Part shown: positions 767 to 9,808 of the stretch, one piece after another
How the letters are laid out: every line of letters starts with the position of its first letter
How positions within the stretch are numbered: position 1 is the stretch's first letter
DNA from: Haloarcula sp. DT43
GTDB taxonomy: Archaea > Halobacteriota > Halobacteria > Halobacteriales > Haloarculaceae
Reading direction: 5' to 3'
DNA length: 64,000 nucleotides
Assembly (NCBI RefSeq): GCF_037078405.1
Contig: NZ_JAYMGZ010000002.1
Coordinates: 248,001-312,000, forward strand
The notes under the pieces: generated by a model
Database searches by the model: none
The model's input: the letters and a program-made list of their open reading frames with translations, nothing else
What the model was told of the DNA's origin: nothing
Program-made: the position numbers and the translations under genes

Positions 767-2440
767 TTAGTCGTCTGCAGGGGTACCGCCGCTACCGCCG
801 CTTTCGCTCACGATGTCTTCGGCGGACTGTTGCTGGCCCATCGGTTCGGGGCTGTGACACTGTCTGACCATCCGCTTGGTCTCCATCGGTGGCTCCTCGG
901 TCACCAGCGAGACGGCGATGGTGACGAGGAACACCAGCGGCGTCCCGACGAGCGCCGCGCCGATCGGCGGGACGTACTGGGCGTAGATGGGAATCAGCGC
1001 GCCGCTCTCACCCGCCGCCGCACCGAGCGCGCCGATGTAGTTCGGCAGGACGCTGTTGACGACGGAGCCGATCCACAGCAACAGTCCGACCGTCATGCCA
1101 GCGAGCGCGCCCTCTCGGTTGGTGTTCTCCCACCAGAGGCCGAGGAAGAACATCGGGAACAGCACAGTGCCCGCGAGCGAGAACGCGTAGGCGACCAGTT
1201 CGCCGATGAGCGCGGGCGGGTTGAACGCGGTCACGGTCACCAGTGCGCCGATGGCGACGATAGTGGCCCGACCGATGAGCACCTGCTGGCGCTGGGTCGC
1301 GTCGGGATTGATGAGTTCGGTGTAGATGTCGTGTGCGACCGCCGAGGAGGCCGTGATGAACAGCCCGGCGGTGGTCGCGATCGCCGCGGCCATCGCGCCG
1401 GCCGCGACGAGGCCGACGAACCAGGTCGGGAGGTTGGCGAACTGCGCGGCGAGCACGACGATCACGTCGCCTTCAGCGCCGGACATGCCGCCCTGTGCGG
1501 CGTAGGCGTCCGTACCGGTCACTTTGCCGAAGAGGTCGACACCGAAGGCCGCCATCGCGGGCGCGGCCCAGTACAGCAGGAGGATGAAGAACAGCCCCCA
1601 GACGCAGGACCAGCGCGCGGTCCGCTCGTTCTCGACGGTGTAGAACCGAACCAGGACGTGCGGGAGGCCGCAGGTCCCGAAGATGAGCGAGAACGCCGTC
1701 GCGACCCAGATGTAGTAGGAACTGGCTCGGAACGGGGCCGAGAACTGGCGGCCGAGTTCACTGATCAGCGCGCCGTACTCGATCTGTGGCAGGATCGTCG
1801 AGTACCCCTGCGAGAAGCCGACGACGTAGACGCCCGCGAGGAACGCGATGATGAGGATGACGTACTGGACGGCCATGTTCTTCGTCGCGCCCAGCATCCC
1901 CGAGAGCGCGAGGTAACCGACGGTGATGGTCATCATCACGACGATCATCGGGATGATGTCCAGCCCGAAGACGTACTGACCGACCAGGCCCATGCCGCGG
2001 GCCTGTCCGACGGAGTAGACGTACGCGATAAGCAGCGTCGTGAACGCCCCCAGCGCGCGGGCGGTCGGCGAGTTGAACCGGTCGCCGACGAAGTCTGGCG
2101 CAGTGTACTTCCCGAACCGGCGCATCTGCGCCGCGAGGAAGATGAGCAACACGAAGTAGCCGGTGGTCCAGCCGACGATGAACGCCAGGCCGTAGAAGCC
2201 CGAGAGCGCGACGAGCCCGGCCAGTCCGAGATACGAGGCGGCGGACATCCAGTTCGCGCCGATGGCCATCCCGTTCTCGATGTTTCCGATGCCGCGGCCG
2301 GCGACCCACATCCCCTCGGTGTCGGCCACCTTGAACACGTAGCCGATGACGAGGAACGAGGCCATCATCAGGAAGACGAGGATGGCCGGGACGAGCTTGA
2401 ACGAGATGTCGAGCGCCTCGGCCTGCAGGGGGACCGTCAC
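767..2440 (-). CDS. Sodium:solute symporter, large subunit (acetate permease-like)
   Basis: A 557-aa SSS-family transporter with about 13 hydrophobic segments. The segment containing GRGIGNIENGMAIGANWMSA matches the TM1-TM2 region of ActP/VC_2705-type symporters. It should import a carboxylate, most likely acetate, with Na+ across the cytoplasmic membrane. Its GTG start overlaps the stop of the DUF4212 gene (GTGA), a translational-coupling arrangement expected because the two form a large/small subunit pair. The acetyl-CoA synthetase gene upstream on the same strand supports acetate as substrate. The hydrophilic C-terminal tail (about residues 510-557) is not part of the transport core. Confidence 0.9.
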   Translation of the reverse strand: MTVPLQAEALDISFKLVPAILVFLMMASFLVIGYVFKVADTEGMWVAGRGIGNIENGMAIGANWMSAASYLGLAGLVALSGFYGLAFIVGWTTGYFVLLIFLAAQMRRFGKYTAPDFVGDRFNSPTARALGAFTTLLIAYVYSVGQARGMGLVGQYVFGLDIIPMIVVMMTITVGYLALSGMLGATKNMAVQYVILIIAFLAGVYVVGFSQGYSTILPQIEYGALISELGRQFSAPFRASSYYIWVATAFSLIFGTCGLPHVLVRFYTVENERTARWSCVWGLFFILLLYWAAPAMAAFGVDLFGKVTGTDAYAAQGGMSGAEGDVIVVLAAQFANLPTWFVGLVAAGAMAAAIATTAGLFITASSAVAHDIYTELINPDATQRQQVLIGRATIVAIGALVTVTAFNPPALIGELVAYAFSLAGTVLFPMFFLGLWWENTNREGALAGMTVGLLLWIGSVVNSVLPNYIGALGAAAGESGALIPIYAQYVPPIGAALVGTPLVFLVTIAVSLVTEEPPMETKRMVRQCHSPEPMGQQQSAEDIVSESGGSGGTPADD

Positions 2441-2898
2441 TGCTCGACACCCCCGTCCGTGGCCGCGGCGTCGGCCTGATCACCGTTGTCCGACTCGATG
2501 TCGGTCTCGACCACGCTGGGGTCGATACCGTACTTTTCGTCGAGCGCGTCGCGCTTGCGTGCGTACCAGAAGGCGAGTATCAGCGCGCCCGTCGGGCCGC
2601 CGAAGGCCACCGTGAAGTAGTGCAGCGGAAAGCCCGGCGGAACCGTTATCGACGTCATCGTCTCGGGCGCGATAAGGGTCAGCGTCACCGGTCCGAAGAC
2701 GATGAGCGCCCAGACGATGAAGCCGGACCACACGATGCGCAGGTGATCGCGCATGAACGCCGTACTGGGGCTCAGGAGGTTCACCTCCTCTTCGAGGTAG
2801 TTCGTGTTTTGATGCTTCTGTGCCGCGTCCGTCGTCGTCCCGCCGTCGGGAGCGACAGCGCAGCCGCTACTGCTGTCGTGGGTGTCGTTTTCTCTCAT
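2437..2898 (-). CDS. DUF4212 symporter small subunit
   Basis: A 153-aa protein with a hydrophilic N-terminal extension (about 48 residues) and two TM helices (about 60-85 and 98-118), the layout of the small subunit that partners VC_2705-type Na+/solute symporters. FGPVTLTLIAPETM and PLHYFTVAFGGPTGALI lie in the conserved core. It is translated just before the large subunit, with overlapping stop and start codons. The acid-rich C-terminus is typical for a halophile. The role is assigned from family and gene pairing. Confidence 0.85.
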   Translation of the reverse strand: MRENDTHDSSSGCAVAPDGGTTTDAAQKHQNTNYLEEEVNLLSPSTAFMRDHLRIVWSGFIVWALIVFGPVTLTLIAPETMTSITVPPGFPLHYFTVAFGGPTGALILAFWYARKRDALDEKYGIDPSVVETDIESDNGDQADAAATDGGVEQ

Positions 2899-2951: not shown

Positions 2952-4946
<1,995 letters not shown>

Positions 4947-4973: not shown

Positions 4974-4982
4974 CATATAAAC
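4974..4982 (-). promoter_or_regulatory. TATA-like box of acs1
   Basis: GTTTATATG read on the minus strand, centred about 32 bp upstream of the acs1 ATG. The spacing fits a haloarchaeal leaderless promoter. Confidence 0.5.
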
Positions 4983-5015
4983 GGGGGGTCTAACTACGAT
5001 AACACGAGACAGGGC

Positions 5016-6707
5016 TCACCCGTCCGTCGGTCGCCGCGGCTCCGTCGGCCGGTCGTCGAAAAACGCAGTCAGGACCTTCTGCTGTGCCTTCCTGAGGTGG
5101 TTGTGTAGCGTCGGCGACGACACGTCGAGCGAGTCCGCCAGCTCCTCGGCGGTCGACCCGCGGGGCCACTCGAAGTAGCCGCTGTGGTAGGCCGCCCGGA
5201 GGACGGTCTCCTGGCGGTCAGAGAGGGTGTCTGTCAGCCGGTCGCGGAAGCCGGTGTCGGTCTCGGCCGGCCGCTCCGTCTCCCGCTTCGCCGCCAGCGA
5301 GGTCTCGGGGTAGGCGTCGGTGACGGCGTTGACCGTCGGTCTGATGTCGGCCTCGCTGGGGAGTTCGACGCCGATGGTCGCCACGCCGTCGGTGGCCGTC
5401 ACGGAGCGGATGCGGCCGCCGCTCTCGACCAACCGCAACGCCGGCGTGTCGGTCACGACCACCTCCAGCAACGCGCCGTCGCTGTGCTCTTCCAGGAGTC
5501 TAGCGTCGGCCACGCCGTCGACGTCGGCCGCGTACGACAGTATCGCGTCGGCCGAGGCACCCTCGACCATCAGGTAGTACAGCAGCGACTGGTCCGCGAC
5601 GGGGACGACCCCGGACAGTTCGACTGTACACTGCAACGCCCCGGAAACTCCGGCGGTGAAGGTCCGCTCGTCCCCACAGTGAAACTCCAGTTCGGTCACC
5701 GTGTCGGCAAGCAGGAGCCGTTTGCGCTCGGCGGCGACCTGCGCGTGGCCGGTCTGGACGCCCAGCGCGGCCAGAACGGCCCGTTCCGCGTCGGCGAGTC
5801 CCCCGTCAGTCCCGACGCCGAGCACGCCGGAGACGGCGTTTTCCCTGACGAGCGGGACCAGCGCGACCGGTCCAGTGCTGTCGTCGACGACGCGAACCTC
5901 GCCCACGTCGAGCGGGGCGGCGACCGACTCGACGTGAGCGTCGAGTTGCCGCTCGACGGCCGCCTCGTCGACGTCCGTCGCCGCACGCGGCGTCAGCCCG
6001 TCGCCGGTCCGTTCGGCGAGCCAGGCGAACTCGAAGCCCGCGGCCCCCGTCAGGTGGTCACAGACCGTCGCCGCAATCGCCTCCCCGGTCGCGGCTGCCG
6101 CGAGCGCCTCGCTGACTGCCCCGACCCAGTCCGCGGGGTTTCGGCACTCGCCCGGGGTGACACGCTCGCCGGCCCCGTCGACGGCCGCGACGATGGCCTC
6201 GCGGTCCGGCTCGTCGAGCAAGGGGTCGAGCCGGTCGAGCCGGTCCCAGCCGCCGAGCGCACAGACCACGTCCGGCGGGACCCCGTCGTCGAGCAGCGCC
6301 GCCGCGAACCGCCACCGGAGGTCGCGCGAGGACGCCTCGCGCAGGTGCGGGGCCGCGTCGGCGGCGCGGTCGGCCACCTCGCTGACGAGCATCTGGAGCC
6401 GCCGCGGGGAGACCGAAAACAGCGGCTCGTCGTCGGCTCTCCCGGCCGCGTTCGCGTACTTCCGCATGTCGTGTTCGACCGCGTCCGGAAGGTACGTCTC
6501 GCGTACGACCTCGCCCTCCGCCCGGACGGAAAGCAGGCGGTGCCCCTCGAACTCGGCGACGTCGGCCAGCCGCACGGCCGTCATCTCGGCCGGACGGAGC
6601 CCGACCTCCGCGCCGAGTCGGAGCACGAGGTCCGCGCGGTGCGTCTCGGCTGCGCGCCGGAGCCGTTCGTACCCTCGCTCGCCGATTCGGTCCGCTGGGC
6701 CGTCCAT
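5016..6707 (-). CDS. Bat-type HTH regulator with recombinase-like N-terminal domain
   Basis: A 563-aa four-part protein. Residues about 1-165 resemble a tyrosine-recombinase catalytic fold (GLRPAEMTAV, then SSRDLRWRFAAALLDDGVPP), but the usual His of HxxR reads Ser and no catalytic Tyr is evident, so it is probably a non-catalytic sensor or DNA-binding relic. About 175-330 is GAF-like, about 335-480 a bacterio-opsin-activator sensor domain, and about 500-555 an HTH_10 domain (LSDRQETVLRAAYHSGYFEWPR, ELADSLDVSSPTLHNHLRKAQ). The first in-frame codon upstream is TTG; I chose the ATG seven codons later because a TATA-like AT-rich stretch lies about 28 bp before it. Flanked by two acs genes, it is a good candidate regulator of acetate use. 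Confidence 0.85.
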   Translation of the reverse strand: MDGPADRIGERGYERLRRAAETHRADLVLRLGAEVGLRPAEMTAVRLADVAEFEGHRLLSVRAEGEVVRETYLPDAVEHDMRKYANAAGRADDEPLFSVSPRRLQMLVSEVADRAADAAPHLREASSRDLRWRFAAALLDDGVPPDVVCALGGWDRLDRLDPLLDEPDREAIVAAVDGAGERVTPGECRNPADWVGAVSEALAAAATGEAIAATVCDHLTGAAGFEFAWLAERTGDGLTPRAATDVDEAAVERQLDAHVESVAAPLDVGEVRVVDDSTGPVALVPLVRENAVSGVLGVGTDGGLADAERAVLAALGVQTGHAQVAAERKRLLLADTVTELEFHCGDERTFTAGVSGALQCTVELSGVVPVADQSLLYYLMVEGASADAILSYAADVDGVADARLLEEHSDGALLEVVVTDTPALRLVESGGRIRSVTATDGVATIGVELPSEADIRPTVNAVTDAYPETSLAAKRETERPAETDTGFRDRLTDTLSDRQETVLRAAYHSGYFEWPRGSTAEELADSLDVSSPTLHNHLRKAQQKVLTAFFDDRPTEPRRPTDG

Positions 6708-6710
6708 CTG

Positions 6711-6736
6711 TTTCGGAATATCGAACAATACCGAAA
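6711..6736. promoter_or_regulatory. Inverted repeat at the regulator promoter
   Basis: TTTCGG (6711-6716) and CCGAAA (6731-6736) form a perfect 6-bp inverted repeat with a 14-bp AT-rich spacer. It lies immediately upstream of the chosen ATG and overlaps the TATA-like stretch. It could be an operator, perhaps for autoregulation. Confidence 0.4.
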
Positions 6737-6846
6737 TAAGAATTCCGGTCGAAAAAGCGCTACTGGTGTGCTTGAGAGATACTGTGCGTTGAGCGCGGGA
6801 ATACCTCGGGTTAGAACTTCGAATTTTTCGAGAAAAACGAAACGCG

Positions 6847-8790
6847 TCACTCCCCGCTCGTCGTCGACTGGATTTCGCCGAGGATTTCGGGGTTGCGCAG
6901 CGCGCTGGTGTCGCCCAGGTCCTCGTCGTTTGCCACTGCCGTCAGCAGGCGGCGCATAACCTTGCCCGAGCGCGTCTTCGGGAGGTCGGGCGTGAACACT
7001 ATCTCCTTGGGTCGGGCGATACCGCCGATGGCGTCGACGATGGCCTCCTCGATGGCCGCCCGGAGTTCGCTTTCAGCGTAGCCGTCCTCCGGGGAGGCGA
7101 AGGCGTACACTGCTGTTCCGGTCGTCTCGTCGTCGGCACCGACGACGGCGGCCTCGGCGACGCCGGTGACGCCCGCGACCGTCGACTCCAGTTCCTTGGT
7201 GCTGAACCGCCGGCCGGCGACGTTTATCGCGTCGTCGATGCGCCCGAGGAACGTGATGTAGCCGTCCTCGTCGACCGAGACGCTGTCCTCCGGGTAGTAC
7301 CGCCACTCGTGACTGTCGTCCGGCACGCTGCCCCAGCCAGTCCCCTCCAGCAGCGCCCGGGGCATCCCCGGCCAGGGGCGCGTCACGACGAGTTCGCCGG
7401 CCGCGTTCGGCCCGGCCGCCGCACCCGAGCGGTCGACGACGGACGCCTCGATACCCGGGAGCGGCGTTCCCGCCGCCCCCGGCTTCATTCCGTCGACGCC
7501 CGGCAGCGTCGACACGAGCACCGCGCCGGTTTCGGTCTGCCACCAGGTGTCGACGATGGGGCACTCGCCACCGCCGATGTGCTCGCGGTACCACTCCCAG
7601 GCGCGCGCGTCCATCGGTTCACCGACGGTGCCAAGCAGGCGCAGGCTGGAGAGGTCGTGTTTCTCGGGGTACTCCTTGCCCCACTTCATGAACGCGCGGA
7701 CGGCCGTCGGCGCGGTGTAGAACACGTCGACGGCGTACTTCTCGATGAGTTCCCACAGCCGGTCTTTCTCGGGGTGGTCCGCGGTGCCGTTGTACAGCAC
7801 CGTCGTGGTCCCGAGCGCGAGCGGGCCGTAGACGATGTAGGAGTGGCCGGTAATCCAGCCGATGTCGGCCGAACACCAGTAGGTGTCTTCGGGCTTGATG
7901 TCGAGCACCGACCGGGCGGTCCAGGCGACGTGGGCGAGATACCCGCCGGTCGTGTGGGTGACGGCTTTGGGGCGGCCGGTCGTCCCCGACGTGTAGATAC
8001 GAAAGAGCGGGTCGTCCGCCGCCCGCGAGATGGGTTCGACTTCGGCCCCCTCGTGGGCCGCCAGCAGGTCGTGATAGTCGTCGTAGTCGTCGCCTAAATG
8101 CACGTCGCGGCCGAGTCGGTCCAGCACGACGACCGACACGTCGTGGTCGACGGCGATGCGCGCGTTGTCCGCCTTGTTCTTCTGGGCGACGGCGCTACCG
8201 CGGCGGTAGTAGCCGTCGCAGGTGACGAGATACTCCGACTCGGCCCGCTCCATGCGCGTCGCCAGCGCGTCCGCGGAGAAGCCGGCGAAGACGACGTTGT
8301 GTGGCACGCCGAGCCGCGCGCAGGCGAGCATCGCCACCGGGAGTTCGGGCACCATCGGCAGGTACAGCGTCACCACGTCGTCCGGGCCGACGCCGCGCTC
8401 GCGCAGCGCCGCGGCGAAGGCGTTGACCTCCCGGTACAGCTCCAAGTAGGTGTAGGTGCGGGACTCGCCGAGGTGGCCCTCCCAGACCAGCGCGAGCTGG
8501 TTCTTCCGCTCGGGGAGGTGCCGGTCGAGGCAGTTGTACGCGGCGTTTAACCGGCCACCGGGGAACCACTCGAACGGCGGTCCGTCCGTCCCGCGGAACA
8601 CGGTTTCGTAGGGCATCTCCCAGTCGAGCAACTCGGCGGCCTCGCGCCAGCAATCGGGCCACTCCCGTTCGAAGCGGTCGTAGACAGCCGGGTCCGTCAC
8701 GTTCGCCTGCTCGACGAACCAGTCCGGTGGCTCGACTGTCTCGCGCCCCGCGCGGGACCGGTCCCGACCCGGTTCGTCACCCCGTGTCAT
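6847..8790 (-). CDS. acs: Acetyl-CoA synthetase 2 (AMP-forming)
   Basis: A second full-length acetyl-CoA synthetase (647 aa) with the same order of motifs as acs1: PPDWFVEQANV at the N-terminus, P-loop YTSGTTGRPKAVTHT, WWQTETG, and the C-terminal LPKTRSGKVMRR with the catalytic Lys. The ATG at 8790 is preferred over an upstream TTG in frame; a T-rich TATA-like element lies about 27 bp before it. It is somewhat more diverged from the acs consensus than acs1 and could differ in affinity or acyl specificity (acetate versus propionate), which sequence alone does not settle. The regulator gene lies 140 bp downstream on the same strand. Confidence 0.94.
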   Translation of the reverse strand: MTRGDEPGRDRSRAGRETVEPPDWFVEQANVTDPAVYDRFEREWPDCWREAAELLDWEMPYETVFRGTDGPPFEWFPGGRLNAAYNCLDRHLPERKNQLALVWEGHLGESRTYTYLELYREVNAFAAALRERGVGPDDVVTLYLPMVPELPVAMLACARLGVPHNVVFAGFSADALATRMERAESEYLVTCDGYYRRGSAVAQKNKADNARIAVDHDVSVVVLDRLGRDVHLGDDYDDYHDLLAAHEGAEVEPISRAADDPLFRIYTSGTTGRPKAVTHTTGGYLAHVAWTARSVLDIKPEDTYWCSADIGWITGHSYIVYGPLALGTTTVLYNGTADHPEKDRLWELIEKYAVDVFYTAPTAVRAFMKWGKEYPEKHDLSSLRLLGTVGEPMDARAWEWYREHIGGGECPIVDTWWQTETGAVLVSTLPGVDGMKPGAAGTPLPGIEASVVDRSGAAAGPNAAGELVVTRPWPGMPRALLEGTGWGSVPDDSHEWRYYPEDSVSVDEDGYITFLGRIDDAINVAGRRFSTKELESTVAGVTGVAEAAVVGADDETTGTAVYAFASPEDGYAESELRAAIEEAIVDAIGGIARPKEIVFTPDLPKTRSGKVMRRLLTAVANDEDLGDTSALRNPEILGEIQSTTSGE

Positions 8791-8897
8791 CAATTGACAA
8801 TACGGCCGCGCACTCAAAAACCTCCTCTCTAATTATGTACTATTTTCCGCGAGGTCGGCGCGGTCGGCCGTTCTCACTTTCGACACTGGCGACGGAA

Positions 8898-8906: not shown

Positions 8907-8947
8907 AGTCCTGCGGCCAACTGGTGTACGAGAGGCCGGGACGGGGC

Positions 8948-9808
8948 ATGAGCGACACCGAAAAGAAGATCGCCGACACGAAAGGACAGTTCCTTCAGGC
9001 GGTCTCACAGGGCCAGCGCCTCACCGACGCCGAGTGGCGAAACTGCCGCATCATCCTCACCACCGAGCGGGTCGCCCTGCTGGGCGACGACAAGCGACAG
9101 ATATCGCTGACCGACATCGACCGCATCGCCGACCGGTTCGACGTGAACCAGCAAAGCGCCGGCGTCTCCGAGTACATCGCGCTCTACGTCGGCGAGGACG
9201 TGATCCTCGTGTCGGCGTCGGACCACGAGGCCTTCGAGACCGACTTCTACCGGGCGAGCCTCGACGGCGCAATCGTGCTGGTCCAACATCCCGCACTGAA
9301 AGGCGGCGTCGTCCAGTCCGCCGAGTGGACGAAAGGCCGGCTGAAAGTCGGCGACGAGGCGCTGAAACTCGCGATGGCCGACGGGCAGGCCGTCGTCGTC
9401 GACCGCGCCGACATCGGCGACCTCGCCGTCGAGGAGAAACAGGTCAACGGCGAGGAGCGAACGGTCATCCAGGTCGAACACAGCGAGGACGACATCAGCG
9501 TCGAGACCCACCTCGCGGGCGAGGAGTTCCACGCCACCGTCCTCCGGACGATGCTCGAGGAGAGCGCCGAGCAGAACCGCGCCGACCTGGACCTGAGTTC
9601 GACGGAGAAACGGGTCATCATGGCGCTGCACTCCGGCGTCTCGCCGTTCGACATCCCCAACTTCGTCGGCATCTCCGTCGAGAAGACCGAGGAGATATTC
9701 GACCGCCTCATCGAACTCGACGTGATAAGCGTGCTCCGCGAGCGAACGGAAGTGAACCTGACGACGAAGGGCCGTCGGGTCGCCGGCGAGCGGATGGGCG
9801 AACAGTAG
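8948..9808 (+). CDS. cheF: CheF-family chemotaxis protein
   Basis: A 286-aa protein of the archaeal CheF family (DUF439), which links the chemotaxis proteins (CheY, CheD, CheC) to the archaellum motor. The N-terminal PH-like segment contains RIILTTERVALL and ISLTDIDRIADRFDVNQ. The C-terminal third is winged-helix-like (STEKRVIMALHSGVSPFDIP, then TTKGRRVAGE). The ATG at 8948 is chosen over one eight codons upstream because the conserved start is MSDTEKK. No other chemotaxis or archaellum gene is in the window, so this copy is isolated; haloarchaea often carry several cheF paralogues. Confidence 0.85.
   Translation: MSDTEKKIADTKGQFLQAVSQGQRLTDAEWRNCRIILTTERVALLGDDKRQISLTDIDRIADRFDVNQQSAGVSEYIALYVGEDVILVSASDHEAFETDFYRASLDGAIVLVQHPALKGGVVQSAEWTKGRLKVGDEALKLAMADGQAVVVDRADIGDLAVEEKQVNGEERTVIQVEHSEDDISVETHLAGEEFHATVLRTMLEESAEQNRADLDLSSTEKRVIMALHSGVSPFDIPNFVGISVEKTEEIFDRLIELDVISVLRERTEVNLTTKGRRVAGERMGEQ

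Follow-up and report, generated by a model that had tools for sequence, protein, structure and literature searches.

An acetate-operon protein of Halobacteria joins a recombinase-like domain, predicted to be catalytically inactive, to a Bat-type regulator

Results

The IntBat gene and its neighbours

The window analysed here is a 64,000-nucleotide stretch of the genome of Haloarcula sp. DT43 (contig NZ_JAYMGZ010000002.1, positions 248,001 to 312,000). Its reverse strand encodes a 563-residue protein, termed IntBat below, whose gene lies between two acetate-CoA ligase genes and upstream of a symporter. The features are as follows, in window coordinates.

767..2440, minus strand: SSF symporter large subunit (VC_2705 family), probable acetate transporter (Pfam/NCBIfam)
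2437..2898, minus strand: DUF4212, sodium/solute symporter small subunit (Pfam/NCBIfam)
2952..4946, minus strand: acsA, acetate-CoA ligase downstream of IntBat (TIGR02188, above cut-off)
4978..4996, minus strand: TAGTTAG-N8-TTTA, upstream of acsA
5016..6707, minus strand: IntBat gene, ATG at 6707, 563 aa; the range includes the stop codon, ending at 5016
5070..5225, minus strand: HTH_10 domain PF04967, residues 495-546 (Pfam)
5241..5705, minus strand: BAT domain PF15915, residues 335-489 (Pfam)
5745..6083, minus strand: GAF domain, residues 209-321 (GAF_3 just below the Pfam cut-off; GAF structures among the model matches)
6213..6683, minus strand: tyrosine-recombinase catalytic fold, N-terminal, residues 9-165 (Pfam, NCBIfam, profile and AlphaFold2 model)
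6711..6736, no strand: proximal palindrome TTTCG-N16-CGAAA, perfect, at -29 to -4 relative to the ATG; overlaps the TATA-like CTTATTTC
6817..6842, no strand: distal palindrome with one mismatch, between the acsB stop codon and IntBat
6847..8790, minus strand: acsB, acetate-CoA ligase upstream of IntBat, ATG at 8790 (TTG 8817 in the ORF list; TIGR02188, above cut-off)
8817..8835, minus strand: TAATTAG-N8-TTTT, upstream of acsB

An earlier note, made from the sequence alone, had placed this gene between two acetyl-CoA synthetase genes and had described GAF, Bat and HTH_10 domains joined to an N-terminal recombinase-like domain; the TIGR02188 matches of both neighbours confirm the position, and Pfam together with the structure model confirms the domain order. 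In the window protein BAT (3e-45, 154.1 bits) and HTH_10 (4e-21, 75.0 bits) score above the Pfam cut-offs, and GAF_3 (3.2e-5, 24.8 bits) scores below its cut-off of 27. Among 24 relatives scanned, BAT and HTH_10 were each found at E ≤ 0.001 in all 24, Phage_integrase in 20 and an additional PAS domain in seven. The closest named matches to the N-terminal domain come from Haloarcula species (80-87%). The BAT family itself is large and mostly unstudied, with 18 matches in the Haloarcula sp. DT43 genome, 16 of them above cut-off. Two loci, L090 (Haloferax denitrificans) and L117, have a broken IntBat frame with a stop after 220 and 208 aa, respectively, reflecting either a frameshift or a sequencing error.

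Conserved linkage to acetate genes

A single scan of the GTDB genome collection returned 151 relatives, and the best 80, picked by a pattern containing the RRxQM motif described below, were taken as named loci; as these are related by descent, they should not be counted as independent events. In 79 of these 80 loci across Halobacteria, IntBat is preceded on the same strand by an acs gene. In 75 an acs gene lies downstream, mostly followed by DUF4212 and SSF, so that acs-IntBat-acs-DUF4212-SSF is the commonest order. The sole locus without an upstream acs (L124) has 3.7 kb of upstream sequence present. Of the five without a downstream acs, three (L091, L124 and L145) run into the end of a contig, and in the other two (L102 and L113) DUF4212 follows directly. 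A second collection, the family set, which partly shares genomes with the 80 loci, gave acs upstream in 36/36 and downstream in 33/36 fused loci, and at none of its four loci that encode a solo integrase. The order was likewise unchanged in putatively Halorubrum-like and other loci fetched via DUF4212 (L181, L182, L191, L192), and a Haloferax alexandrinus plasmid shows the gene order directly. In Haloarcula, a CheF-arch gene (window 8924-9808, plus strand) is divergent from acsB, the two sharing a short promoter region; several related loci have a second CheF farther away.

In H. volcanii, the orthologous acs7-HVO_A0155-ssf-uspA28 cluster is described as an acetate operon whose 4.6-kb acs7 transcript was present in acetate-grown cells only and undetected on glucose or casamino acids (PMC7746861). 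That operon resembles the window in its acs-DUF4212-SSF order, and the account of it there names no regulator, a role for which IntBat is a candidate. As acs7 is HVO_A0156 and acs8 is HVO_A0158 (PMC7746861), the gene between them, HVO_A0157, is by position the presumed IntBat ortholog. For H. mediterranei, increases of 3.47- and 3.06-fold on acetate are reported for the acs pair HFX_5129 and HFX_5131 (PMC11784441). A search of the open-licence literature for papers naming HVO_A0157 or HFX_5130 found none.

A tyrosine-recombinase fold lacking three catalytic residues

Phage_integrase (PF00589) matches the window protein at 2.9e-5 and 24.3 bits, just short of the cut-off of 27.1. The integrase assignment does not depend on this score alone, since the NCBIfam XerA model matches the N-terminal domain at 5e-9 and a 28-row profile retrieves the XerC-like 4a8e at 4e-14 and XerA 5hxy at 4e-7. 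Structure prediction, proposed earlier as a check, upheld the recombinase fold: in the AlphaFold2 model the pLDDT of the domain is mostly >90, a Foldseek search with the model gave Cre and XerA as top matches, and XerA 5hxy superimposes with a Z score of 18.6 and an rmsd of 3.6 over 167 aligned residues. The core-binding domain is absent, and the catalytic fold begins within ~10 residues of the N-terminus.

The residue reading of the earlier note, in which the GLRPAEM and R...R pattern is kept and the His and the Tyr nucleophile are lost, also holds. R38 (in GLRPAEM) and R131 are retained, the box-II His position is R128 and the Tyr nucleophile position is L163; to these we add that the H/W position is retained as W154 and that the β-hairpin Lys is missing too. 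In a census of 118 distinct fused proteins, the box-II His was present in one and lost in 117, the second Arg was Arg in 115, the H/W position was Trp in 107 and the Tyr was retained in 46. The box-I Arg was kept in 99 and lost in 19, suggesting that part of the phosphate pocket is decaying as well. The hairpin Lys was found in 2/108 fused proteins versus 23/23 solo integrases. One fused protein from Halalkalicoccus paucihalophilus (L128:6941-8575) has R-H-R-W-Y all present and lacks the hairpin Lys; it may represent an intermediate stage on the way to an inactive site. On these residues, the recombinase domain of IntBat is predicted to have lost catalytic activity; an active recombinase was considered and rejected on the basis of the census.

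A second set of residues distinguishes the fused proteins. The motif RRxQM lies at residues 102-106 of the window protein, and R102, R103, Q105 and M106 are invariant in 108/108 fused proteins, but not in solo integrases. Part of this 108-sequence set was fetched with a pattern containing RRxQM; the same residues are also invariant in 28 sequences fetched by tblastn without that pattern. In the model they start a helix (residues 101-115) ~25 residues ahead of box II, which we take to be where the major-groove helix of Cre lies.

Selection on the domain and origin of the fusion

Across 105 pairs among 15 genes from the genus Haloarcula, the median dN/dS of the N-terminal domain was 0.146, compared with 0.224 for GAF, 0.080 for BAT and 0.014 for HTH_10. 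Despite the lost box-II His, the recombinase-like domain is thus under purifying selection, as judged from codon substitutions, and this value together with near-universal retention of the domain led us to reject drift of a useless domain.

In a midpoint-rooted FastTree phylogeny, 23 solo and 108 fused domains were separated by one split with a support of 0.985, which is compatible with a single origin of the fusion. The catalytic domain of a solo plasmid or chromosomal integrase may have been fused to a GAF-BAT-HTH_10 activator to give IntBat, and the integrase part would have lost cleavage (Lys, His and often Tyr) and retained sequence-specific DNA binding. The idea that the fused gene came from a phage or another mobile element was rejected on searches of phage, viral-contig and plasmid records. 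No match to the fused gene was found in the phage records searched, and the viral contigs gave one weak match. Among plasmid records, 37 had a match, of which those labelled bacterio-opsin activator are ten haloarchaeal replicons of about 285-816 kb, the remainder being solo integrases or unlabelled.

Paired palindromes at the IntBat promoter

The palindromes and the acs element described below were both spotted by inspection first and counted afterwards. Among the best 80 of 151 loci, the exact core TTTCG-N15/16-CGAAA occurs at least once in 79 of the 80 IntBat promoters, L152 being the only exception, and at least twice in 68; one copy usually lies at the start codon (-25 to -32) and the second about 95-110 bp upstream. 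In same-sized control windows, the core was found in 2/75 regions upstream of acsA, 2/76 upstream of acsB and 68/1461 random windows. The family set has the palindrome in 55/55 loci and two copies in 52/55. With up to one mismatch allowed, palindromes with a gap of 15 or 16 have densities of 1.8 and 4.5 per kb at the IntBat promoter versus 0.03 and 0.06 elsewhere; only these two gaps stand far above the rest, and the gap classes 6-9 and 20-21 rise less (0.5-1.0 per kb). In the window alone, three palindromes with up to one mismatch versus 1.48 expected are not significant, and the argument therefore depends on conservation. Genome-wide, the perfect form is found twice, once at the IntBat promoter and once in sequence that looks coding by eye. 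A Rayleigh test for helical phasing of the paired palindromes, over 26 distinct distances, gave p ~0.057 for a period of 10.5 bp and 0.008 for one of 11.0 bp; with shared descent among the loci and several periods tried, this is weak evidence.

The solo integrases carry a related feature. All four in the first census keep R-H-R-W-Y, and further solo sequences show those motifs. Aligned upstream regions of 23 solo integrases contain an inverted repeat resembling a core site (in L177, for instance, 10-bp arms around a 6-bp spacer), and TTnCG-N15/16-CGnAA with one mismatch allowed occurs upstream of 18 of the 23 (mean 4.0 and maximum 10 in 200 shuffles), mostly at about -108 to -131. Its symmetry extends farther inward, unlike that of the IntBat palindromes, in which the inner arms are asymmetric. 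The presence of a similar palindrome at a similar place before intact solo integrases ties it to the integrase domain. The paired palindromes at the IntBat promoter, which the earlier note had not anticipated, suggest autoregulation through the recombinase-like domain.

An element before the acs genes

A different element marks the acs promoters, of which 75 for acsA and 76 for acsB were drawn from the best 80 of 151 loci. In 71/75 acsA promoters (mean 1.84 and maximum 6 in shuffles), YTAG is found at -42 to -47 relative to the ATG, with a TATA-like box after exactly eight further nucleotides. This count is partly post hoc, because the alignment itself later suggested the 8-nt spacing; an earlier, looser regular expression had found 22/75 only. 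The four misses include L106, with a misassigned start, and L126, with visibly similar sequence. The element occurs in 9/76 acsB promoters (shuffle mean 0.47, maximum 3), so control of the upstream acs gene through it would not be class-wide, and in 3/80 IntBat promoters (shuffle mean 1.05, maximum 5). A genome-wide search with a fixed pattern is less exposed to post hoc bias: TARTTAG-N8-TTTW occurs exactly twice in the 3.75-Mb genome, at the acsA and acsB promoters, with none in the reversed control. With the variant ANARYTAG-N8-YTTA neither acs site was recovered, and its one match in the genome lies elsewhere (five in the reversed control). By inspection, the element was not seen in seven acsA promoters whose genomes have no fused IntBat (L183, L184, L186, L187, L190, L194, L195), and it is present in L198, which lies at a contig edge in a genome that has IntBat elsewhere. 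Given class-wide synteny and the confinement of TARTTAG-N8-TTTW to the two acs promoters, the earlier proposal that IntBat controls both acs genes is well supported but not proved.

Discussion

Proposed mechanism and alternatives

We consider it somewhat probable that IntBat is a dedicated regulator of the acetate operon in which HTH_10 activates acs and the catalytically lost recombinase domain binds the palindromes and represses the IntBat gene itself. This division of labour is read from the placement of the motifs, since the palindrome covers the TATA box to the start and the acs element stands at a fixed spacing next to the TATA box, as for an activator site. The recombinase-like domain would bind TTTCG-N15/16-CGAAA, usually in two copies, at the IntBat promoter; because the proximal copy covers the region from the TATA-like box to the start codon, its occupancy should block transcription initiation, giving negative autoregulation. 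HTH_10 would bind the YTAG element 8 bp ahead of the TATA box at acsA, and also at acsB in Haloarcula, and growth on acetate would induce the acs genes by way of a signal that GAF, or GAF plus PAS, detects. The domains, synteny, catalytic residue loss, selection and both DNA motifs with their places are observed; the pairing of motifs with domains, the direction of the regulation and the ligand are what we infer. Points against this reading are the asymmetric inner arms of the IntBat palindromes, the box-I Arg lost in 19/118 fused proteins, the missing core-binding domain and the scarcity of the acs element at acsB.

As a tentative extension, which we hold to be possible but on balance rather unlikely, IntBat might keep recombinase-style synapsis, with two dimers on two palindromes forming a tetramer that loops the DNA and shuts the promoter without cutting. 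On that view, the palindrome pair would be domesticated integrase core sites brought in with the integrase gene, and site-specific recombination, halted at its first step, would serve as a metabolic switch throughout an archaeal class.

The repressor role of the recombinase-like domain has to be weighed against the view that HTH_10 does all the DNA binding, perhaps with HTH_10 dimers reading both motifs, and that the recombinase remnant is a scaffold for oligomerisation or signal coupling; control of acs and of the gene itself would stand. HTH_10 is by far the most constrained domain (dN/dS 0.014), half-sites 21 bp apart would also suit a dimer, and the lack of the TAG element in the seven IntBat-less acsA promoters makes this element at least fit HTH_10. 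However, solo integrases that have no HTH_10 carry a comparably placed palindrome whose outer half-site and spacing match, and among seven other Bat loci of the window's own genome the palindrome is found in none of six, with two scattered matches in L003, so we regard this view as unlikely. A further point against the main reading is that several acetate symporter clusters without IntBat (L183, L184, L194, L195, L188, L189) have another BAT-domain gene nearby; a Bat-type regulator thus recurs at such clusters, and HTH_10 alone can apparently do that job.

It is improbable, in our judgement, that the motifs belong to another transcription factor and that IntBat is a bystander in the cluster. 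The link of IntBat to either motif is indirect and haloarchaeal regulators are many (18 BAT matches in this genome), but the palindrome pair lies at IntBat itself in nearly every locus rather than at its neighbours, and the acs element was unseen in the seven acsA promoters whose genomes lack IntBat. We judge it very improbable that IntBat is still an active recombinase and uses the two palindromes to rearrange its promoter: two core-type sites usually about 95-110 bp apart, the Tyr kept in 46/118 proteins and the complete R-H-R-W-Y of Halalkalicoccus L128 would suit such activity, yet the window protein has neither Lys, His nor Tyr, and even L128 is without the hairpin Lys.

Relation to known proteins

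The domain combination is already published. Family fam30-04 of archaeal tyrosine recombinases comprises Phage_integrase, BAT and HTH_10, in some members with GAF_2 (Badel 2021, PMC8371274), a domain set shared with IntBat, in which the integrase match of the window protein falls below cut-off. The part of that report describing the family lists it among recombinases and gives no function, inactivation, acs linkage or operators (PMC8371274). In the open-licence literature we found no account of an acs link, of inactivation of a fam30-04-type fusion, of the paired palindromes or of the acs element, which are what is new here, and a literature search for a functional study of an integrase-BAT-HTH_10 fusion found none.

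MrpR, the master repressor of the Bacillus prophage SPβ, offers a precedent for a non-catalytic recombinase acting as a repressor. Like IntBat, MrpR has a tyrosine-recombinase fold with the catalytic residues largely lost; it is a DNA-binding transcriptional repressor, and the recruitment of recombinases as repressors may be widespread (PMC10516654). Unlike IntBat, it is described as a phage protein with a core-binding domain, with Tyr and Lys kept and with no sensor or HTH (PMC10516654), whereas IntBat is cellular and mostly chromosomal, is without the core-binding domain and carries GAF-BAT-HTH_10. The bacterio-opsin activator Bat of Halobacterium shares with IntBat a GAF sensor and a C-terminal HTH, but has a PAS/PAC domain, is described there with no recombinase domain and controls bop rather than acs (PMC2253796); the upstream activating sequence for Bat is located 5' to bop (PMC1447603).

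On the preferred reading, the haloarchaeal acetate operon gains a candidate dedicated regulator plus candidate operators, fam30-04 would be reclassified from recombinases to non-catalytic regulators, and IntBat would show, in a cellular protein found across a class, an integrase domain that has become a DNA-binding domain coupled to a sensor. These hypotheses are testable in H. volcanii. Both states are alive for a comparison of candidate DNA sites, in the form of intact solo integrases, one fused protein with R-H-R-W-Y and fused proteins without the catalytic set. The intact solo integrases of ~200 aa (L161-L179, L075-L078) have a conserved core-like palindrome about -105 to -131 from the start, and some have a degenerate copy by the start codon; the upstream palindrome is a candidate attachment or autoregulatory site of that family.
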